This document shows positions 1,912 to 64,000 of a stretch of 64,000 nt of DNA, piece by piece (the first letter of the stretch is position 1; every line of letters begins with the position of its first letter). The DNA is from Thermosulfurimonas sp. F29 (lineage in GTDB: Bacteria; Desulfobacterota; Thermodesulfobacteria; Thermodesulfobacteriales; Thermodesulfobacteriaceae): assembly GCF_019688735.1 (NCBI RefSeq), contig NZ_JAIFYA010000003.1, positions 124,001 through 188,000 on the forward strand, in the 5' to 3' direction. Made by a program: the position numbers and the translations under genes. Under the pieces are notes generated by a model, which saw only the letters and a list, made by a program, of their open reading frames with translations, searched no databases and was not told where the DNA came from.

Positions 1912-3492
1912 CTACACTTTAAACCGGGAAACCGCCCGGGCAAGTTCCTGAGCTACATGGACGAGTTTTCGTATAGCCTCCAGATTTTCTCTGACTCCGG
2001 CCAGGGTCTTTTGAGCGGCTGCATACGCCTCTTCCGCCTCCTGAGCAAACCTTTCCGCGCTACCTCGCTGATCGTCCACCTTCTGAACGATGTCTGAAAT
2101 CACCGCCGTCTGTTCCTCCACCGCCGCGGCTATGGCCGAGGCAATCTGATCGATTTCCTGAATAATATCGGTGATCTCGTCCGCGGCCCGAATGGCCTCC
2201 TCGCTTCCGGACTGCATGGCCCGTACCTTCTGCGTGATTTCCTCGGTGGCCTCCGCGGTCTGCCGGGCCAGTTCCTTCACCTCGTTGGCCACCACGGCAA
2301 AACCCTTCCCGGCCTCCCCGGCCCGGGCCGCCTCAATGGTAGCGTTGAGGGCCAAAAACTTGGTCTGCTCGGCTATGTTCGTGATGAGCTGAATCACTCC
2401 CTCGATCTCCTGCGAGGCGGCCCCGACTCTGTGCATTATTTCCTGCGCGTTGCGGGCCTTTTCCACCGCCTCCTTGGTGATCATGCTCGCCCGGGTGGTG
2501 TTCTGACCGATCTCCTGTATAGCCGCGGAAATCTCGTTTATGGACCGGGATTCCTCTTCTACGCTCTCAAGAATGGTCTTCCCCTCGTTTCTCATCCTGG
2601 TGGCACGCTCTCCGGCTGCCTCCGCTTCCCGGGAAGCTCCCTCTAAACGCTCCTTCATCTCTAGGGAAACCTCCTCCACCTCTCGGGATCCAGAAGCTAC
2701 ATCTTTCAAAAGGGGCCGCAGGGTGGAAACCATGTGATCCAGGTGCTTAAGAATCTGTGCCGTCTCGTCCCTACCATCCACGCTGAAACTGCGGGAAAAA
2801 TCCCCCCGCGCCAGGGCGTCCACAGCATCAATAATCAGACGAATATTCCGGGAAAGCCCGCGAGAAATTACGACGAGAATCAAAATGGTACTGAGTATTA
2901 GAATCAAATTCGTTAAAACCGTAACCTTCTTTACCAGTAAAAGGGCTTCCGAAGCCTGAGCCTTGGCTTCGGCCTCCCTTCTGTCCAAAAAATCCCGCCC
3001 TAACCGTCTCATAAGACGGAAGAGTTTCTTGGAAAGAGGGTTGGTCTTCTCGTTATAAATTGCCACAATATCCTCGTAATCCGCCTCACGGGCATAAAGC
3101 TTCTGCATCTCGGCTACTGAAAGATGGAGCTCACGATCAACTTCCCGAATCTTCTGAATCAGTTCGGCCTCCTCGGAATCCAGGGGCTTATACTCAGCCA
3201 GAAACCTCTGAAGAGGACATTTTTTCGGGTCAACCACCACCTTAGGAGCCGCTTCATTGAGCACAGCCACAAGAACATTCACCTTCCAGCGAATATGAGA
3301 GGCTATGAACCTTTCCATGTTTTCCCTTACTCTTTGGGCCTGCTCCGCCCTGAAGTAGTCGTGATCAGCCTTCTCCTGGAAATACCAGAGCACACTCAAA
3401 TTGACCAAACTAATCAGAATTACCGCCAGAAAGCTCAATAAAAGTTTCTGCCACATCTTGAGTGAACGGCTCATTCTCTCCATAAACGACAT
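1912..3492 (-). CDS. Methyl-accepting chemotaxis protein with CZB-like extracytoplasmic sensor
   Basis: A 526-residue chemoreceptor that would signal to CheA/CheW. Order: cytoplasmic N-tail, TM1 (about 16-38), a sensor of about 140 residues, TM2 (about 190-212), HAMP, then the methyl-accepting helical domain with the hairpin tip [21 protein letters not shown], intact. The sensor holds HIRWK and a later CPLQRF, which resembles the H-x-x-W and C-x-L elements of the CZB zinc-binding domain, but here it lies between the membrane segments. CZB domains are usually cytoplasmic. That assignment is a resemblance, not a proven domain. No other che gene is in the window. Confidence 0.92.
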
Positions 3493-3573
3493 TTCGTGGT
3501 CCCCCGATTTCTGGGATTTAATGGTAAATTAATTTATATAATTAATCCCTTGAGATCAAGGAGTTTCCGCAGG

Positions 3574-55576: not shown

Positions 55577-56036
55577 GCAACACCGCCACGGCCCAGGCGG
55601 CCACCCCCTCCTCTTCGAAAAGGGCCAGGCCCTCCGGGCTCTTGGCCTTGAGCCCCACCCGTTCCACCGGAATGGCCAGAAGACGGGCCAGGTTTTCCCG
55701 CAGGCGATCCCGATGGGGAACCAGTTTGGGCCGGGCCAGAACCAGGGTCAGGTCCACCTGATAAACCGAAAGGCCCTTTTCGGAGACCAGTCGCAGGGCC
55801 TCCCGCAGAAAAAGCGAACTTGCCGCACCCCGATACCGGGGATCGGTGTCCGGAAAGAGGGAGCCCAGATCCGGAAGTCCGGCGGCCCCGAGGATGGCGT
55901 CGGTGAGGGCATGAAGGGCCGCATCCGCATCGGAATGACCGGAAAGCCCCACCTCGCAGGGTATCTCCACCCCGCACAGCACCAGGCGACGGCCCGGTAC
56001 CAGACGATGCGAGTCAAACCCCAGCCCCACGCGCAT
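55560..56036 (-). CDS. ispF: 2-C-methyl-D-erythritol 2,4-cyclodiphosphate synthase
   Basis: A 158-residue MEP-pathway enzyme that cyclises CDP-ME 2-phosphate. GLSGHSDADAALHALTDAILGAAGLPDLGSLFPDTDP carries the zinc DxH pair, with KSPEGLALF near the end. ispD is nearby on the other strand, so the pathway pieces are close but not one operon. Confidence 0.97.
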   Translation of the reverse strand: MRVGLGFDSHRLVPGRRLVLCGVEIPCEVGLSGHSDADAALHALTDAILGAAGLPDLGSLFPDTDPRYRGAASSLFLREALRLVSEKGLSVYQVDLTLVLARPKLVPHRDRLRENLARLLAIPVERVGLKAKSPEGLALFEEEGVAAWAVAVLREDGA

Positions 56037-56049
56037 AAATGCAACCCTA

Positions 56050-56078
56050 TCGAAATTTTAACTATTTTTTGCTACAAT
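56050..56078 (+). promoter_or_regulatory. Candidate promoter of the EAL/HDOD-mpl-nfi-ispD run
   Basis: TCGAAA (4 of 6), 17-base spacer, TACAAT (5 of 6), in the gap divergent from ispF. Confidence 0.5.
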
Positions 56079-56096
56079 AACATCCAGGTAGAGTAT

Positions 56097-57347
56097 ATGG
56101 ATAATACCTATTTTCCTCGGGTTTATGTGGCGCGGCAACCCATTCTGGACGAACGAGGGCGCACGCATGCCTACGAGTTGCTCTACCGGCAAAGTCTGGA
56201 AAACTTCTTCGTTCCGGAAGAAAACCGGGAAGACATAGCCTCCAAGAGGGTCCTGGTGCATGCCTTTCTGAATTTCGGTCTGGAAAACATAGCCTTCGGA
56301 CGCAGAGTCTTCGTGAACTTCACCGGTGAGCTCCTGAAAGCGGGGATTCCGTATCTCCTGCCTCCCCAGAAGCTGGTTATAGAGGTGCTCGAAAGAATTT
56401 CCGATCCGGACGAAGTCAGGCCTGTGGTGAGAGAGCTTAAAAAGAGGGGATATCTGATAGCCCTGGACGATTTCCGGGAGGATTCACCCCTTAAGATATT
56501 CCTGCCCTATGCCGATTATGTAAAGATAGACTTTCGTATCACCCCTTCCGAAGAGATAAAGCGTCTCTGTGAAGAACTGAGGGGCGATTTCCGTCTGGTG
56601 GCGGAAAAAATAGAAACCCAGGAGGAACTTGAGGAGGCTCGCTCCCTGGGTTTTACCTACTTTCAGGGGTTCTTTTTCGCCCGCCCCAAGATCCTTTCCT
56701 CTCAGGAAATCCCGGTCTTAAAGATCCATTACCTGCGCCTTATCAAGTTTCTCTATTCTGCTCGGGACAACCTGGAGGAAGTGATAGAGGTAATAAATTC
56801 CGATCCGGCTCTGGCCCTGAAACTTCTCAAATACATAAATTCGGCCTTTTTCGGGTTTGTTACCAAAATTCACTCCGTAAGGCACGCCGGGGTGCTGCTG
56901 GGTTATCAGGGGCTTCGAAAGTGGGCCTCTCTGGTGGCCCTTCACCTTATGGCTGCGGATCGTCCTCCGGAGCTCATAATAAACTCCATGGTGCGAGCCA
57001 GGTTCATGGAACTCCTGGCCCGGCGGGTGGGCCTTGAGGAACGCGCCGACGACGCCTTCATCGTGGGCCTTTTCTCCCTCCTAGAGGCGATGGTGGATCA
57101 GCCCATGCACGCTATAATCGCCGACCTTCCCCTGGAAGACGATGTTAAGGCCGCTCTTCTCGGACGGGATAGTCCCTTCACCCCTCTTCTTTCGGTAATT
57201 CGGGCCTATGAAAGCGGTCAATGGGAAATTCTTAAAAATTTGGTGCCCAAATTAAACCTTCTTTCCAACAATACCCTTCCGGAAATTTACGCCGAGGCCC
57301 TGTCCTTCGCTCATCAGGCCTTTTCTACGGGAGGGTCTTCCCAATGA
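56097..57347 (+). CDS. EAL-HDOD signalling protein (YuxH-like)
   Basis: A 416-residue protein. The N-half is an EAL-like domain opening YVARQPILDERGRTHAYELLYR with ALDDF; it lacks the full E-A-L and metal set (ELLYR in place of EALLR), so cyclic di-GMP cleavage is doubtful and binding more likely. The C-half is an HDOD domain (LALKLLKYINSAFFGFVTKIHSVRHAGVLLG). Such proteins act in signalling and division control. Followed by mpl through ATGA. Confidence 0.9.
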   Translation: MDNTYFPRVYVARQPILDERGRTHAYELLYRQSLENFFVPEENREDIASKRVLVHAFLNFGLENIAFGRRVFVNFTGELLKAGIPYLLPPQKLVIEVLERISDPDEVRPVVRELKKRGYLIALDDFREDSPLKIFLPYADYVKIDFRITPSEEIKRLCEELRGDFRLVAEKIETQEELEEARSLGFTYFQGFFFARPKILSSQEIPVLKIHYLRLIKFLYSARDNLEEVIEVINSDPALALKLLKYINSAFFGFVTKIHSVRHAGVLLGYQGLRKWASLVALHLMAADRPPELIINSMVRARFMELLARRVGLEERADDAFIVGLFSLLEAMVDQPMHAIIADLPLEDDVKAALLGRDSPFTPLLSVIRAYESGQWEILKNLVPKLNLLSNNTLPEIYAEALSFAHQAFSTGGSSQ

Positions 57348-58738
57348 GGGTTCACCTGCTCGGGGTGGGGGGGATCGGGATGTGCGCTCTCGCCGGATTG
57401 CTTTCGGCCCGGGGTTTTTCGGTTACCGGAAGCGAGGGGGCGCCTCCCTATCCCCCCTCAAGCACCGTGCTGGAAAAACTGGGGATTCACCCCCGTATAG
57501 GTTATCGTCCCGAACACATAGACGAACTCTCTCCGGAGGCCGTGGTGGTGGGAAACGCCATCCGGGCGGACAATCCGGAGGTTCGCCGGGCCGAAGCCGC
57601 CGGACTTCCCTTACGATCTCTTCCCTCGGCGCTGGCCGAATGGGTCCTTCCCGGGCGCAGATCCCTGGTGGTGGCCGGAACCCACGGAAAGACCACCACC
57701 GCCGCCCTCCTCGCCCACGCTCTGGAAAACCTGGGGAGTGAGCCCACCTATCTCGTGGGCGGCCTTCTGCGGGACCGAAAGCTCAATTTCGCCTGGGGAA
57801 ACGGCCCTTTCGCGGTCCTTGAGGGGGACGAATACGACACGGCCTTCTTCGACAGGACCCCCAAGTTCTGGCACTACCACCCTTACGCCGCCATCCTCAC
57901 CTCGGTGGAGTACGATCACGCCGACATCTATCCCCACTACGAGAGCTTACTTGCCGCCTTTGAAAGGTTCGCCGGGCTCGTGGCCGCCGAGGGCCTTTTC
58001 GTCTTCTGTGCGGACGATCCCGGGGCCGTGCGGGTGGCCGGGCGTACGCCAGCCCGGAGGGTCTCCTACGGGAGGGATCCGGAGAGCACCTATCGCCTCC
58101 TCAAGACCCGGAGCCTTTCCGAAGGGACGGAGGTCACCTACCGGGGGCCCGGAACCACGGGCACCTTTTTTATACCCCTGTGGGGGGAGCACAACGCCCT
58201 TAACGCCCTTGCGGTGTGGGCCCTTCTCCGGGAGCTCGGTTTTGAGGACACGCGCCTTAGGGAAGCTTTCCGGAGGTTTCCCGGGGTCTCGCGTCGCCAG
58301 GAGGTCCTTTATCGGGGAAGGGTGACGGTGGTGGACGACTTCGCCCATCATCCCACCGCGGTGAGGGTCACCCTTTCGGCCCTGCGGGAGGCCTTAAAGC
58401 CCCGCCGCATCCTTCTGTGTTTCGAGCCCCGCACCAACACCAGCCGGCGGAGGCTCTTTCAGGGGGCCTATGCGGAGGTTCTCGCGGAGGCCGACGAAGT
58501 GTGGCTCAAGAAACCCCCGGGGCTGGAACGCATCCCCTCCTCCGAAAGACTCGATCTTGAAGAGCTGGCCCGGGCGGTGTGTGGCAGGGGCCGGGGAGGC
58601 CTGGTCGTCGAAGAAGATCCGGCGGAGGCGCTCGCGGCCACCGCGGAGGAAGGGGATCTGATCCTTTTCATGTCCAGCGCCTCCTTCGGGAACACCTACG
58701 AGAACCTGATCCGGCGTCTTAAGGACAAGGGGCTTTAG
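57344..58738 (+). CDS. mpl: UDP-N-acetylmuramate:L-Ala-D-Glu-meso-DAP ligase (Mpl)
   Basis: A 464-residue Mur-ligase that reattaches recycled murein tripeptide to UDP-MurNAc. VLLGVGGIGM-type start (here HLLGVGGIGMCALAG), ATP loop GTHGKTTTAALL, GDEYDTAFFDRTPKF and SVEYDHADIYP, then DDFAHHPTA. The GDEYDTAFFD signature separates Mpl from MurC. Indicates DAP peptidoglycan recycling, in keeping with a Gram-negative wall. Confidence 0.94.
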   Translation: MRVHLLGVGGIGMCALAGLLSARGFSVTGSEGAPPYPPSSTVLEKLGIHPRIGYRPEHIDELSPEAVVVGNAIRADNPEVRRAEAAGLPLRSLPSALAEWVLPGRRSLVVAGTHGKTTTAALLAHALENLGSEPTYLVGGLLRDRKLNFAWGNGPFAVLEGDEYDTAFFDRTPKFWHYHPYAAILTSVEYDHADIYPHYESLLAAFERFAGLVAAEGLFVFCADDPGAVRVAGRTPARRVSYGRDPESTYRLLKTRSLSEGTEVTYRGPGTTGTFFIPLWGEHNALNALAVWALLRELGFEDTRLREAFRRFPGVSRRQEVLYRGRVTVVDDFAHHPTAVRVTLSALREALKPRRILLCFEPRTNTSRRRLFQGAYAEVLAEADEVWLKKPPGLERIPSSERLDLEELARAVCGRGRGGLVVEEDPAEALAATAEEGDLILFMSSASFGNTYENLIRRLKDKGL

Positions 58739-58740
58739 CG

Positions 58741-59391
58741 GTGGGAGTCCTGGACCTCGAAAGGCTCAGGACCCTTCAGGTGGAGATCGCGCAAAAGGCC
58801 CGATCCGGATCCTTCGGGAGGGAACCCCGTCGGGTGGCCGGGGTGGATGTGGCTTACCGGAAGGACGGAAATTGGGCCTTTGCCGCAGCGGTGGTTCTTT
58901 CCTGGCCGGACCTCCGGATACTCGAGGAGCGAGTTTTGAAGCTTCCGGTCCGATTCCCCTATGTCCCCGGTTATCTTTCCTTCAGGGAAGTCCCGCTTCT
59001 CAAGGAGCTCCTTCGGACCCTCCGCGAGAAACCGGACCTTCTTTTCGTGGACGGGCAGGGACGGGCCCATCCCCGCCGGTGCGGCCTTGCGGTGCACCTG
59101 GGGGTGGAGGTGGGGATTCCGAGCCTTGGTTGCGCAAAAAAGCCCCTCCTTCCTGGGGTGGTCCTTCCCGAGGACCGGCGCGGAGCCAGGACGCCCATCC
59201 TTCTCGAAGGGGAGGTGGTGGGATATGCGGTGCGGACCCGCTCCGGGGTGAAGCCGGTCTATGTCTCTCCGGGGCACGGGCTTTCGGTGGAGGAGGCCGT
59301 GGAGTTTGCGCTTTCCGCCTCGCGGGGATTTCGTATTCCCGAACCCATAAGACGGGCCCATCACCTGGCCACGGAGGCCCGGAATGCCTGA
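58741..59391 (+). CDS. nfi: Endonuclease V (deoxyinosine 3' endonuclease)
   Basis: A 216-residue repair nuclease that cuts near deaminated adenine. VAGVDVAYRKDG holds the catalytic Asp, YVPGYLSFREVPLL is the PYIP-wedge region, and DGQGRAHPRRCGLAVHLG is the second metal motif. GTG start two bases after the mpl stop. Deamination repair suits a thermophile. Confidence 0.95.
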   Translation: MGVLDLERLRTLQVEIAQKARSGSFGREPRRVAGVDVAYRKDGNWAFAAAVVLSWPDLRILEERVLKLPVRFPYVPGYLSFREVPLLKELLRTLREKPDLLFVDGQGRAHPRRCGLAVHLGVEVGIPSLGCAKKPLLPGVVLPEDRRGARTPILLEGEVVGYAVRTRSGVKPVYVSPGHGLSVEEAVEFALSASRGFRIPEPIRRAHHLATEARNA

Positions 59392-60076
59392 GACGGCGGC
59401 CATTCTCGCCGCAGCCGGCCGGGGCGTGCGCCTGGGGGCCGAAATCCCCAAACAGTTTCTTGAGGTGAGGGGAAGGCCGCTCTTTCTCTATTCCCTCTCG
59501 GTCCTTGAGGAACATCCCGGGATCTCCGAGATCGTGGTGGCGGTGCCTCCGGGCTGGGAGGAGAGGGTGTTTACGATCATCCGTAAGGAGGGTTTCCGGA
59601 AGGTGAAGGCCGTGGTGCCCGGGGGGGGAAGCCGTCAGGAATCCGTCCGCCGGGCCTTTTTGCGGATCTCCCGCCGGGTGGAAGCGGTGCTGGTGCACGA
59701 TGCGGCCCGGCCGCTTCTTTCCGCGGATCTGGTATCAAGGGTGCTCGAGGCCGTATGGCTTGAGGGGGCAGCGCTTCCTGCGGTCCCGGTGCGGGACACG
59801 GTGAAACTGGCGCGCGAGGGACGGGTGGTAAGGACCGTCCCCCGCGAGGGACTCTTCCTGGCTCAGACCCCTCAGGGAGCCCGCCGAGAGTGGTTCGAGG
59901 AGGCCTTGCGCCGCGCCGGAGACCGGGAGTTCACCGACGAGGCGGCCCTGCTTGAGGCCGCGGGTTTCCCCGTGCGGGTGGTCCCCGGAAGCCCCCTCAA
60001 CCTTAAGCTCACCTATCCGGAGGACCTCGTCCTCGTCGAAAAGCTTCTCGGTCTTGACATCCGCCCGAAATTGTGA
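59384..60076 (+). CDS. ispD: 2-C-methyl-D-erythritol 4-phosphate cytidylyltransferase
   Basis: A 230-residue MEP-pathway transferase. AILAAAGRGVRLGAEIPKQFLEV at the start, VLVHDAARPLLS in the middle and NLKLTYPEDL near the end are diagnostic. It overlaps nfi by 8 bases. Confidence 0.97.
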   Translation: MPETAAILAAAGRGVRLGAEIPKQFLEVRGRPLFLYSLSVLEEHPGISEIVVAVPPGWEERVFTIIRKEGFRKVKAVVPGGGSRQESVRRAFLRISRRVEAVLVHDAARPLLSADLVSRVLEAVWLEGAALPAVPVRDTVKLAREGRVVRTVPREGLFLAQTPQGARREWFEEALRRAGDREFTDEAALLEAAGFPVRVVPGSPLNLKLTYPEDLVLVEKLLGLDIRPKL

Positions 60077-60119
60077 GGTTATTAAGGTAAACCATTTCTA
60101 ATCAAGGGGAGGTCGTAAC

Positions 60120-60458
60120 ATGTTTCGGAAAATTAAGAAGGGGTTAATCGGTCTGGGATTGGTTTCCGTATTGATAATGCCGGTGGGTTGCACCCAGAAA
60201 CTTTCCCAGCAGGATCGGGCCCTTATTCAGCAGGCCATAGAGGCCTCCAAGCAGGCCCAGGCGGCGGCGGAGGAGGCCAAGAAGGCCCAGGCCCAGGTGG
60301 AGGCGGAGCTGGCCCGTATCGAGGCTGCGGCGAAGCAGGCCGCTCTTGCGGCTCAGCGGGCGGACGCGGCGGCCACCCGGGCGGCGGAAGCGGCGGAAAA
60401 GGCCAACGCCGCTGCGGCCAAGATGGAAAGGATTTTCGAAAAGTCCCTGCGAAAGTAG
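60120..60458 (+). CDS. Ala-rich coiled-coil lipoprotein, Lpp-like
   Basis: A 112-residue exported protein: basic N-terminus, hydrophobic stretch, and MPVGC at 20-24 as a slightly unusual lipobox (Pro at -3). The mature ~89 residues are one long Ala/Lys/Glu/Gln helix with heptad-like AAEEAKKAQAQVEAEL repeats and no globular part. The chain ends in Ser-Leu-Arg-Lys; Braun lipoprotein likewise ends Arg-Lys, whose lysine is joined to peptidoglycan by an L,D-transpeptidase. A gene for such an enzyme lies next door, convergent. GGGGAGG precedes the ATG. Confidence 0.85.
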   Translation: MFRKIKKGLIGLGLVSVLIMPVGCTQKLSQQDRALIQQAIEASKQAQAAAEEAKKAQAQVEAELARIEAAAKQAALAAQRADAAATRAAEAAEKANAAAAKMERIFEKSLRK

Positions 60459-60477
60459 GGCTGACAAGCGGGGTCCC

Positions 60478-61377
60478 TCAGCGCACCTCTCCCACCTCGC
60501 GGGGGACCCCGTCGGGTTTCCTGAGCACCTCTCGCACCCGGAAGAGATCGAGGGTTAGGTCGTATCCCGTCTCTCTTTCGAGACGCGCGGCCATTTTTAC
60601 CACCTCGAGTACCGGATCCGGAAGCCGTTTCTCTATGTCGGGGAAGGCCTGAAGGTAAACGCGCCCCTCCCGAATACCGAGTTTCACCGGCTGGTAGAGG
60701 ACTCGCACCGGAGTCCCCACCGGAACCAGGGGAAAGAGGGCCTTGATGTCTTCGGGATAGAGCCGGATGCAGCCGTGACTCACCCTCCGGCCGATACCCC
60801 AGGGACGGTTGGTCCCGTGGATGGCGTAGGCCCCCCGGGAAAGATACAGGGCGTAATCCCCCAGGGGGTTTTCCGGCCCCGGGGGCACCACCTCGGGCAG
60901 CGTGGGATCTTCCTTCCTTATGGATTCCGGCACATGCCAGTAAGGGTGTTCCTTCTTTCGATAAACCGTGTAGATGCCCTGGGTGGTGAGCCTTCCCTCT
61001 GTTCCTATTCCTATCGGGGCGGTGTAAACCACCCGGACCCCGCCTTCGGTCCGAAAGTAATAAAGACGCATCTCCGGAAGGTTTACCAGGATACCCGTGT
61101 GAGGACCCTCGGGGAGAACGAATTCCTTGGGGATGAGTACCCGATGTCCGGCCGGGGGTATCCAGGGATCCAGCCCGGGATTGGCCAGAACGATCTGGTT
61201 GTAGCCCAGGTCGTAGGCCCGGGCCACATCAAGCAGGGTCTCGTTTCCCGAAAGGGTGTGGTAAAGGATTTCCCCGAAAACGCTCTGTCCCTCCGGGATC
61301 ACGAACCGGTCCAGGGCCAGGAGACGAGCCGGCAGACACAGCCCCAAGATTAGAAGTAGGCGGATCAAAAATTTCAT
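60478..61377 (-). CDS. L,D-transpeptidase of the ErfK/YbiS type
   Basis: A 299-residue periplasmic enzyme: signal peptide (about 1-21), a LysM-like module (LSGNETLLDVARAYDLGYNQIVLANPGLD), then the YkuD domain with HGTNRPWGIGRRVSHGCIRLYP containing the catalytic His and Cys. The order matches E. coli ErfK, YbiS and YcfS, which join Braun lipoprotein to meso-DAP. It converges on the lipoprotein gene with 19 bases between stops and is divergent from cysM-cysS with 17. Confidence 0.95.
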   Translation of the reverse strand: MKFLIRLLLILGLCLPARLLALDRFVIPEGQSVFGEILYHTLSGNETLLDVARAYDLGYNQIVLANPGLDPWIPPAGHRVLIPKEFVLPEGPHTGILVNLPEMRLYYFRTEGGVRVVYTAPIGIGTEGRLTTQGIYTVYRKKEHPYWHVPESIRKEDPTLPEVVPPGPENPLGDYALYLSRGAYAIHGTNRPWGIGRRVSHGCIRLYPEDIKALFPLVPVGTPVRVLYQPVKLGIREGRVYLQAFPDIEKRLPDPVLEVVKMAARLERETGYDLTLDLFRVREVLRKPDGVPREVGEVR

Positions 61378-61394
61378 GTTAGAGATTTTAAAAC

Positions 61395-63731
61395 ATGGAG
61401 ACCTTTCGCAAACCCTCGAAAAACATTCTGGAGCTTATCGGCAACACCCCTCTGGTAAAGTTGCGCCGCATCCGGGTTAAACCCCGGGTGGAGATCTGGG
61501 TCAAGCTGGAAAGTTTCAATCCCGGAGGCTCGGTCAAGGACCGGATCGCCCTTTCCATGATCGAGGACGCCGAGGAGAGGGGGCTTCTCACCCCCGGAAA
61601 GATCGTGGCCGAGGCCTCGAGCGGGAACACCGGTATAGGCCTGGCCATGGTGTGTGCGGTCAAGGGTTACCGTTGTCTCATCGCCATGCCCGAGTCGGCC
61701 TCCATCGAACGGCGCAAGATCATGCAGGCCTACGGAGCCGAGATCCTGCTTACCCCCGCGGAAAAGAGCACCGACGGGGCCATCGAAGCCATTTACGAGC
61801 TGGTCCGGCAGTATCCGGACAGGTACTACAATCCCGATCAGTTCAACAATCCGGCCAACTGGAGGGTTCATTACCGCACCACGGCTCCGGAGATCTGGCG
61901 GGATACCGAGGGGCGGGTCACCCATGTGGTGGCCTCCATGGGGACCACCGGGACTCTCATGGGGCTCGCCCGCTACTTCAGGGAAAAGGCCCCCCAGGTA
62001 CGGGTGATAGGGGTGGAGCCGGTGCCGGGGCATCGCATTCAGGGCCTCAAGAACATGAAGGAATCCTATCCTCCGGGAATTTACGACCGCAAACTGCCCC
62101 ACGCGGTAATCAATGTGGACGACGAGGAGGCCTACGAATTGAGCCGGCGTCTGGCCCGGGAGGAGGGCATCTTCGTGGGCATGAGCTCCGGGGCGGCGCT
62201 GGCCGGGGCCCTGAAGGTGGCCCGGGAGATAGACGAGGGGCTCGTCGTGGTCATCTTTCCCGACGGGGGCGAGCGTTACCTCTCCACTCCTCTGTGGGTC
62301 TTCCCCGAGCCTCCGCGCCGGGAGGACTTTCGCCTGACCAATACCCTCACCGGAAAAAAGGAGGTTTTCGAGCCCCTTGAGCCCGGAAAGGTCCGGATCT
62401 ACACCTGTGGCCCCACGCTCAATCGCCGGCCCCATCTGGGCCTTTACCGGAGGATGCTCACCGCGGATCTGCTGAGGCGCTGGCTCGAGGCTCGGGGCTT
62501 TGAGGTGAACCATGTGGTCAACCTTACCGACTTCGACGACAAGACCCTGGCCGCGGCGGAAGCCGCGGGGCGTCCCCTTAAGGAATTGACCGAAGAGCTG
62601 GCCCGGGAATTCTTAGAGGACCTCCGGTTTCTCCGCATAAAGCCCGCCACCCATTATCCCCGGGTGAGCGAACACCTTTCGGAGATGGTGGATCTCACCC
62701 GCCGGCTCCTTCAGAGCGGGGTGGCTTACGAAAAGTACTCCTCGGTCTATTTTGATGTCTCTAAACTTGCCGATTACGGAAAACTTTCCGGAGTGGATCT
62801 TTCGGGGCTACGGCCCGGGGCCACCGTGGATCTCGACGAATACGAAAAGGATTCTCCGGCGGATTTTACCCTCTTCAAGAGGGTAACCATTCAGGAACTC
62901 AAGCAGGGTTACTTCGTGGACACGGAATGGGGAAAGGTGCGTCCGGGGTGGCACATTCAGTGTGCGGCCCTGGCCATGAAGTACCTGGGGGAAAAGTTCG
63001 ACATCCACACCAGCGGTATGGACCTCCTCTTTCCCCACCACGAAAACGAACGGGCCATTGCCCGGGCCCTCACGGGTGAGGAATTCTGTCGCTACTGGGT
63101 GCACTCGGCCCTGGTGCTGGTGGAGGGCAGGAAGATGTCCGTTTCCGCCGGAAACGAGGTGACCCTTGCGGACCTCCGGGCCAGGGGATATACCGGTCGC
63201 GAGATACGGTTTTTCCTCCTGCGGACCCACTATCGCAAGCCTCTGAACTTCAGCTTTCGGGCCCTGGAGGAGGCCCGAAGGGCCCTTTCCTGGCTGACTC
63301 TTTTCTGTGGCCTCCTGGCGAGCGCACCCCGGGGTGGGAGATCCTCCGAGGCTGAAGAGGCCCTTAAGGAACTACGGGAGGGGTTTGAGACGGCCATGAA
63401 CGACGACCTCAATGTTCCTCAGGTGGTGGCCGAACTCTTTCGCTTCTCCCGGCGGTGGTATCCTCTGGTGGTGGAAACCGGCGTGCCGGAGAGCCTGAGA
63501 GACGAGGCCCTTTCCGTGCTTAAAGAAATCGACGGAGTGCTCGAGGTGCTGGTCTTTCCCGAGGAGGTGCGGGAGGAGGGGGTTCTGCGGATCGTTTCCG
63601 AGAGGGAGACCGCCCGCAAGTCCCGGGATTTTGCCACCGCCGATCGTCTGCGGGACGAACTTCGCCGGGCGGGATTCCTCCTGGTGGACACTCCTCGAGG
63701 TCCCCGGGTCTTCCGTCTCCCGGATGAGTAG
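61395..63731 (+). CDS. Fused cysteine synthase (CysM-like) and cysteinyl-tRNA synthetase-like protein
   Basis: One uninterrupted 778-residue frame. Residues 1-305 are a CysM-like PLP enzyme: PLP lysine 48 in NPGGSVKDR, SGNTG at 76-80, GTTGT at 183-187, EGIFVGMSSGAALAGAL. From about 312 a whole CysRS follows: RLTNTLTGKKEVFEPLEPGK, CGPT (Cys338), zinc residues Cys523, His548 and Glu552 in PGWHIQC and FPHHENE, and the end domain RDFATADRLRDELR. The HIGH motif is HLGL (347-350) and KMSKS is KMSVS (580-584). Cysteine would be made and perhaps activated in one chain. Whether it charges tRNA is open. No ribosome-binding site is evident. Confidence 0.93.
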   Translation: METFRKPSKNILELIGNTPLVKLRRIRVKPRVEIWVKLESFNPGGSVKDRIALSMIEDAEERGLLTPGKIVAEASSGNTGIGLAMVCAVKGYRCLIAMPESASIERRKIMQAYGAEILLTPAEKSTDGAIEAIYELVRQYPDRYYNPDQFNNPANWRVHYRTTAPEIWRDTEGRVTHVVASMGTTGTLMGLARYFREKAPQVRVIGVEPVPGHRIQGLKNMKESYPPGIYDRKLPHAVINVDDEEAYELSRRLAREEGIFVGMSSGAALAGALKVAREIDEGLVVVIFPDGGERYLSTPLWVFPEPPRREDFRLTNTLTGKKEVFEPLEPGKVRIYTCGPTLNRRPHLGLYRRMLTADLLRRWLEARGFEVNHVVNLTDFDDKTLAAAEAAGRPLKELTEELAREFLEDLRFLRIKPATHYPRVSEHLSEMVDLTRRLLQSGVAYEKYSSVYFDVSKLADYGKLSGVDLSGLRPGATVDLDEYEKDSPADFTLFKRVTIQELKQGYFVDTEWGKVRPGWHIQCAALAMKYLGEKFDIHTSGMDLLFPHHENERAIARALTGEEFCRYWVHSALVLVEGRKMSVSAGNEVTLADLRARGYTGREIRFFLLRTHYRKPLNFSFRALEEARRALSWLTLFCGLLASAPRGGRSSEAEEALKELREGFETAMNDDLNVPQVVAELFRFSRRWYPLVVETGVPESLRDEALSVLKEIDGVLEVLVFPEEVREEGVLRIVSERETARKSRDFATADRLRDELRRAGFLLVDTPRGPRVFRLPDE

Positions 63732-64000
63732 TTATTACGGGGATATTCTTCAAGAAATCTACCGGCGACTTTTCCGGCACTTCGGTCCGCAGCACTGGTG
63801 GCCTGCGGAAAGCCCCTTCGAGGTCTGCGTGGGGGCCATACTCACCCAGAACACCAACTGGCGCAATGTGGAAAGGGCCATCGAAAACCTTAAAGCCCGA
63901 AACCTGCTCTCCCCGCAGGCCCTCTATGAACTTCCAGAAGATCTTTTGGCCGAACTTATTCGCCCGGCCGGGTACTTCCGGGTGAAGGCGCGGCGTCTCG
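63724..64000 (+). CDS. HhH-GPD DNA glycosylase, EndoIII/MagIII-like (partial, runs off the window)
   Basis: The first 92 residues: ILQEIYRRLFRHFG, WWPAESPFEVCVGAILTQNTNWRNVERAIENL and the following helix. The WWPA and GAILTQNT style resembles the MagIII branch (3-methyladenine glycosylase of EndoIII type). The catalytic region is beyond the edge. It begins ATGAG inside the last codons of the fusion gene (8-base overlap). Confidence 0.88.
   Translation, partial: MSSYYGDILQEIYRRLFRHFGPQHWWPAESPFEVCVGAILTQNTNWRNVERAIENLKARNLLSPQALYELPEDLLAELIRPAGYFRVKARRL

Follow-up and report, generated by a model that had tools for sequence, protein, structure and literature searches.

The bacterium Thermosulfurimonas sp. 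F29 carries, within the 64,000-nucleotide stretch of DNA analysed here (positions 124,001 to 188,000 of contig NZ_JAIFYA010000003.1; hereafter the window), a gene in which a CysM-type cysteine synthase is fused to a protein resembling cysteinyl-tRNA synthetase (CysRS). The fusion is real and widespread in the phylum Desulfobacterota. Its C-terminal half is, as judged from alignments, a CysRS relative in which the ATP signatures are degenerate and the zinc/cysteine pocket is kept in most members seen. We give about an even chance to the reading that a pseudo-synthetase built into this cysteine synthase serves as a sensor of tRNA-Cys and, for the majority of the members seen, of cysteine as well. 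A sensor is the simplest reading because the parts of the CysRS-like half that serve recognition have been kept and the parts that serve activation seem to have been lost, in a protein fused to an enzyme that makes cysteine.

The gene is a single open frame on the + strand, running from an ATG at 61395 to a stop at 63731 (778 codons) with the two halves uninterrupted. The overall layout is as follows:

61395..63731, + strand: fused CysM/pseudo-CysRS gene, 778 amino acids plus stop (open reading frame, profile matches, recurrence in relatives)
62298..62327, + strand: linker joining the halves (residues 296-308 have a predicted local distance difference test score, pLDDT, under 50)

The window protein matches the PALP profile over residues 12-290 (E 1.7e-83) and the tRNA-synt_1e profile over residues 325-628 (E 1.7e-89), and it scores above the cut-offs of both the TIGR01136 cysKM model (389.5 bits, cut-off 344.15) and the TIGR00435 cysS model (369.1 bits, cut-off 340). 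The DALR and CysS_C matches behind the CysRS catalytic domain are weaker, and CysS_C stays under its cut-off of 23. Fusions free of internal stops recur in relatives, from 87% identity within the genus down to 54%, so an assembly or frame artefact is ruled out; these relatives include Thermosulfurimonas and Thermodesulfatator records. An earlier note on this DNA had described one frame holding a CysM-like enzyme and a full-length CysRS, subject to there being no frameshift or stop between the halves; that description holds, as does every residue it named (Lys48, SGNTG, GTTGT at residues 183-187, Cys338, Cys523, His548, Glu552, HLGL, KMSVS and DFTLFK).

The survey of this architecture in Desulfobacterota that the earlier note had called for was run on 395 genomes of the phylum, a fusion being called when the best E-value to the whole fusion was under 1e-140. 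The fusion was found in 156 of them, with the best values of the rest above 1e-106; G099, G145 and four genomes of family f42 are included among these by E-value only, and not by sight of a full-length match. A separate scan of contigs gave the best 80 of 391 matches, nearly all with Desulfobacterota-type titles. No description of the fusion was found in the literature searched, which consisted mostly of titles and abstract openings from partial listings. Within that literature the fusion is undescribed; synthetase paralogs co-opted into amino-acid biosynthesis are already known as a kind.

The evidence for loss of activation comes from the catalytic part of the CysRS-like half:

62328..63278, + strand: CysRS-like catalytic domain, residues 312-628 (profile and fold match)
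62406..62408, + strand: zinc ligand Cys338, equivalent to E. coli C28 (alignment)
62433..62444, + strand: degenerate HIGH motif HLGL, residues 347-350, aligned to E. coli HIGH 37-40
62862..62879, + strand: DFTLFK, residues 490-495, aligned to E. coli DFVLWK with Trp184 replaced
62961..62963, + strand: zinc ligand Cys523, equivalent to E. coli C209 (alignment)
63036..63050, + strand: stretch with zinc ligands His548 and Glu552, equivalent to E. coli H234 and E238 (alignment)
63132..63146, + strand: degenerate KMSKS motif KMSVS, residues 580-584, aligned to E. coli KMSKS 266-270

Counts were taken over 125 fusions, a non-random set that combines the top-scoring hits of the window protein with hand-picked weaker ones, with duplicates of one protein merged and partial fusions excluded beforehand (20 stretches were picked by hand from the weaker matches, one of which, G241:C1:1-100, was a placeholder without a gene). 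Positions in these counts follow E. coli CysRS numbering. Both histidines of HIGH are kept in 0/125 fusions; H37 is present in 94 and H40 in a single one (L175, which reads NLAH). K269 is kept in three fusions and is never followed by S270 (the pair occurs in 0/125), and a gap falls at L271/G272 in about 15% of the first 106 aligned rows. G225 of the HGGG loop, which we take to be an ATP contact, is found in 0/125, with T in its place in 101. All 31 aligned standalone CysRS, 29 of them from relatives and one each from the window genome and E. coli, have H-x-G-H and K-x-x-K-S; for these sequences the idea that HLGL and KMSVS might be ordinary among the active CysRS of this phylum is not borne out. 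From these patterns we infer that the CysRS-like half no longer makes Cys-AMP.

The pocket has fared differently. C28, C209 and H234 are together present in 105/125 fusions and all four zinc ligands, E238 included, in 77/125; W205 is kept in 124/125 and R42, D69, H234 and E236 in 125/125 each. Fifteen distant fusions have replaced C28, C209 and E238. An AlphaFold2 model built from 35 sequences (mean pLDDT 88.1, predicted template modelling score, pTM, 0.61) places the half in the CysRS fold: 8qhp_A matches it with Z 50.6 and a root-mean-square deviation (rmsd) of 1.5 over 399 aligned residues (VIA-align), and 1u0b_B, the CysRS chain of a tRNA-Cys complex, matches model residues 311-775 with Z 48.7 and rmsd 3.3 over 441. 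Similarity of fold is no demonstration of function.

The part of the CysRS-like half that has persisted best, by the alignments, is the residue set of the anticodon domain, which follows a helical region and was left out of account in the earlier note:

63255..63569, + strand: helical (DALR) region, residues 621-725 (profile and AlphaFold2 model)
63570..63704, + strand: anticodon-binding (CysS_C) domain, residues 726-770 (20.9 bits against a cut-off of 23, alignment, fold)

CysRS has a separate anticodon-binding domain (PMC4519929) and the identity elements of tRNA-Cys are the GCA anticodon plus U73 (PMC9976931). The CysS_C profile was matched in 29/35 members. R737, R741, D750, R753 and D765 of the window protein align to E. 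coli R423, R427, D436, R439 and D451, which we take to be anticodon contacts in the E. coli complex. All five positions (with R or K at 427) are kept in 122/122 fusions with a readable C-terminus, and the columns around them vary. This stretch is missing from three of the 125. Two of these, L057 and L099, are cut short by the ends of their contigs; in the third, L175, from the single-contig genome G049 (C1), the fusion frame breaks near residue 599 and the rest lies in the next frame. Conservation was compared between 10 invariant positions of the anticodon domain and 14 columns of the ATP signatures: it stands at 0.90 for the former and 0.33 for the latter among the 45 members below 70% identity. 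The corresponding values for the 15 members that lost the zinc ligands are 0.96 and 0.10 (Mann-Whitney p 1.1e-5 for the 11 of them under 70%). The difference has the same direction in the 110 members that keep the zinc site, 34 of which are below 70% (p 0.00035). Since the 15 members without C28, C209 and E238 keep all five anticodon residues, the zinc site is dispensable and the anticodon set is not.

As the earlier note had suggested looking for, the window genome (G000) also has a standalone CysRS, with HLGH and KMAKS. A standalone CysRS at 1e-112 or better was found in 357/395 genomes and in 146/156 fusion genomes. Eight of the remaining ten were examined (G111 and G127 were left out): a separate CysRS match is present in three of them (G137, G166 and G191), a standalone CysRS spread over two adjoining frames in G074 and a 100-residue piece in G058. 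The two-frame gene of G074 (L191, C2:129281-130649) lies in a near-complete genome and points either to an error that shifted the frame or to a gene that is split. Fused and standalone CysRS (57 and 11 sequences) are parted by a single branch with support 100/100 in an unrooted tree.

The N-terminal half has, by its residues, an intact CysM-type active site:

61416..62297, + strand: cysteine synthase half, CysM-type with pyridoxal phosphate (PLP) fold II, residues 8-301 (profiles; 2bht_C fold match)
61536..61538, + strand: PLP lysine K48, kept in 125/125 fusions
61620..61634, + strand: SGNTG, residues 76-80, kept in 125/125 fusions
62043..62054, + strand: GLKN, residues 217-220, every position in 125/125 fusions

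The free alpha-carboxylate, a group absent from a tRNA ester, presumably binds to the SGNTG loop. The catalytic lysine and loops are intact as in the cysteine synthases of TIGR01136, TIGR01138 and 3dki type, and the earlier description of this half as apparently active agrees with these residues. The fusion differs from those enzymes in its extra C-terminal half, its GLKN loop and a score marginally under the TIGR01138 CysM equivalog cut-off (393.5 bits against 394.2). At the GLKN position the CysK-type GIGAGF is read in 6/6 readable standalone synthases out of seven fetched, five of which adjoin SAT-type genes (SAT, serine acetyltransferase) and one of which comes from a fusion locus. Identity to the listed CysM and CysK chains is 40-50%, with 42% for 3dki, titled O-phosphoserine dependent; residue-level text on O-phosphoserine selectivity was not found in the literature searched, and aligning structures gave no pointer to such selectivity. 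The synthase half of the AlphaFold2 model is matched by 2bht_C with Z 41.4 and rmsd 1.5 over 288 aligned residues (VIA-align).

SAT is the usual feedback-controlled step of cysteine synthesis (PMC8786284). At E 1e-35 or better it is undetected in 78/156 fusion genomes versus 55/239 others, and CysE above its curated cut-off occurs in 4/156 versus 71/239, relatedness being ignored in both comparisons. Of 41 relatives, 7 have a SAT match that counts as substantial at E under 1e-40. The window genome has no substantial SAT match, its best being partial at 9.4e-10, and the whole-fusion query gave five matches there, with no second close cysteine synthase among the four listed. For these reasons a SAT-independent donor such as O-phosphoserine is likely in the window genome.

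The architecture, residue patterns and co-occurrence are observed, and a mechanism may be proposed from them. The pseudo-CysRS half would, as we further infer, bind tRNA-Cys, and in the members that keep the zinc site, the window protein included, it would also bind the cysteinyl end or cysteine itself. The activity of the fused synthase would depend on which state is bound, be it charged, uncharged or cysteine-loaded, through an allosteric effect whose presumed sign is that cysteine is made upon undercharging of tRNA-Cys. Charging would be left to the standalone CysRS. In genomes without SAT the donor would probably be O-phosphoserine or another SAT-independent serine derivative. The more specific proposal, that the CysRS half is dead as a synthetase, reads tRNA-Cys by its GCA anticodon and by its end, whether charged or not, switches cysteine synthesis on or off accordingly and replaces SAT feedback in SAT-less lineages, we hold at somewhat below an even chance on the sequence evidence. 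A bolder form, in which the CysM-type enzyme makes cysteine on the tRNA, may apply and is less well supported than direct gating.

Several points weigh against a tRNA-Cys sensor. No standalone CysRS was found in G040, G245 and G375 (79, 82 and 94% complete) or in G031 (98% complete and outside the ten genomes discussed above). Motif loss is not proof of inactivity, because the window protein retains H347, G349, K580, M581, S582 and S584, and because HIGN with KMAKS occurs in the standalone CysRS of two more distant fusion genomes, G137 (L184) and G191 (L185), so that His-to-Asn at the last HIGH position is found in otherwise normal-looking enzymes. The assignment of the five residues to anticodon contacts is presumptive, since residue-by-residue contacts were not found in the literature passages searched. 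Compared with the remaining invariant columns taken together, the anticodon columns show no significant excess of conservation in the 110 zinc-keeping members (p 0.093). The C-terminal part evolves fastest among eight closely related proteins, six from the genus and two from the family, which speaks against conservation of that domain as a whole, with median ratios of nonsynonymous to synonymous substitution (dN/dS) of 0.06 for the synthase, 0.07 for the catalytic CysRS part, 0.20 for the helical part and 0.30 for the C-terminal part, ratios that are rough because dS is around 1 or more. The gradient is shared, however, by six standalone CysRS from this group (identity 0.66 C-terminal versus 0.90 catalytic; fused 0.57 versus 0.86), and a point in favour of the sensor is that the catalytic CysRS part is, by its ratio of about 0.07, under strong purifying selection in the eight. 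The halves of the AlphaFold2 model are confident, but at pTM 0.61 their mutual arrangement is uncertain. Lastly, a shift of control away from CysE is not general, because the other 78 fusion genomes have SAT.

Four other explanations bear on the same evidence. The one that survives best, although we think it unlikely, is a feedback sensor for cysteine only, in which free cysteine held in the zinc pocket would inhibit the synthase in the way that HisZ acts on HisG with histidine, and tRNA binding would be vestigial. The retention of C28, C209 and H234 and of W205, the selection on the catalytic part and the HisZ precedent (PMC9437257) all fit it; the 15 members that gave up three zinc ligands and retain all five anticodon residues do not. 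It is quite improbable that the CysRS-like half is a tether, placing the synthase close to the translation machinery or to tRNA-Cys, or providing dimerisation or stability, with activity unaffected; a retained fold and anticodon set would serve such a role, but the fixation of R42, D69, H234, E236 and, in all but one fusion, W205 seems more than a tether needs.

An active CysRS half has a low probability. The earlier note had offered two versions of it, namely that cysteine is channelled from synthesis to charging, or that a paralog uses Cys-AMP for something else; the latter would be MshC-like. The zinc site and parts of HIGH and KMSKS in the window protein, together with its pass of the cysS model, speak for activity. 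Both versions need adenylation, however, and both are unlikely on the alignments because the ATP signatures (both HIGH histidines, K269 with S270, and G225) are degenerate throughout the 125 fusions and the 15 distant members have also lost three zinc ligands. The standalone CysRS counts further against an active half and bears out one element of the second version, that the fused half is a paralog and not the housekeeping CysRS; the use of Cys-AMP finds no such support, and the MshC model TIGR03447 gives the window protein 200.2 bits, far under its cut-off of 485.1. Least probable by our estimate is tRNA-dependent synthesis, in which the pseudo-CysRS half would hold (phospho)seryl- or acetylseryl-tRNA-Cys for conversion to Cys-tRNA-Cys by the CysM half: the kept anticodon set, the degenerate ATP signatures, the half of fusion genomes with SAT undetected and the SepRS/SepCysS analogy (PMC8762117, PMC5424206) favour it, but SGNTG is intact in every fusion, a standalone CysRS is present, and there is no known source of misacylated tRNA because SepRS and SepCysS are each over cut-off in 0/41 relatives, with weak partial matches only.

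The proposed cysteine synthase with a tRNA-Cys sensor can be compared with known systems. The precedent is HisZ, a synthetase paralog that does not adenylate and through which feedback acts on a biosynthetic enzyme (PMC9437257). Like this HisRS paralog, which is the regulatory subunit of HisG, the fusion attaches an aminoacyl-tRNA synthetase paralog to the biosynthetic enzyme of the same amino acid; it differs in being a class I CysRS (by profile and fold, and not a HisRS homolog) instead of a class II HisRS, in its covalent link and in its kept anticodon domain. HisZ is not known to have an anticodon domain. In GCN2 a HisRS-like domain that is dead as a synthetase senses whether tRNA is charged and controls a eukaryotic kinase. 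The fusion would work alike, with an unrelated synthetase and with a biosynthetic enzyme instead of a kinase as target. Bacterial CysRS (TIGR00435) shares the fold, zinc ligands, anticodon domain and model pass with the window protein's half, and the fusions depart from it in their degenerate HIGH, HGGG and KMSKS, their synthase partner and the coexisting standalone enzyme.

The CysRS* of Desulfobacterales described by Mukai et al. has no anticodon domain, does not read tRNA-Cys and is active on SelC* (PMC9437257). It too is a second CysRS in this phylum, and the fusion shows the reverse pattern, with the anticodon domain present; because the enzyme that does not read tRNA-Cys is the one lacking the domain, reading of tRNA by the fusion gains support. 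MshC, too, is not known to have an anticodon domain. Its chains have 413-414 residues versus 461-501 for the listed bacterial CysRS chains; the fold list itself does not show the missing domain, because several CysRS rows end at model residue 720 as the MshC rows do.

Other features of the loci and genomes were also recorded. A gene at 60478-61377 on the - strand, L,D-transpeptidase-like by eye, diverges from the fusion with 17 bases between the start codons, and a homolog lies near the fusion in 17/79 loci. Neighbours clustered for 79 of 80 loci are housekeeping-like (named by eye) and differ between lineages; a conserved same-strand gene stands beside the fusion in 37 loci (L050, at 2553-3569, and 36 more), within 400 bases in 35. 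No leader RNA or T-box matched Rfam at gathering level in window positions 56000-64000, and a consensus scan of 60000-64000 gave no promoter-like site. The window genome has two dissimilar tRNA-Cys (GCA) genes, at C1:724102-724173 (L203) and C2:579775-579847 (L227). The pattern that finds both, which misses some genes, matches in 289/395 genomes and not in 106, with two or more matches, some visibly due to chance, in about 22. Since so few genomes have two and the same-genus G004 has one, a dedicated second tRNA-Cys was rejected as a conserved partner. A fusion 58% identical to the window's occurs in a record titled Candidatus Thermoplasmatota archaeon (L034, JAPDJT010000009.1); it resembles those of Thermodesulfobacterium and the record is probably mis-binned. 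An apparent third domain in L142 (1403-residue frame) was set aside, by eye, as an open frame antiparallel to another gene.

If the sensor reading is true, amino-acid supply would be coupled to translation demand within one polypeptide, with no transcription or riboswitch control, and HisZ and GCN2 would gain a class I counterpart in bacteria. It could explain how cysteine is controlled in anaerobes without detectable CysE. The label 'cysteine--tRNA ligase' would then probably be wrong for a gene present in 156/395 sampled genomes of the phylum, despite its pass of the cysS equivalog model.

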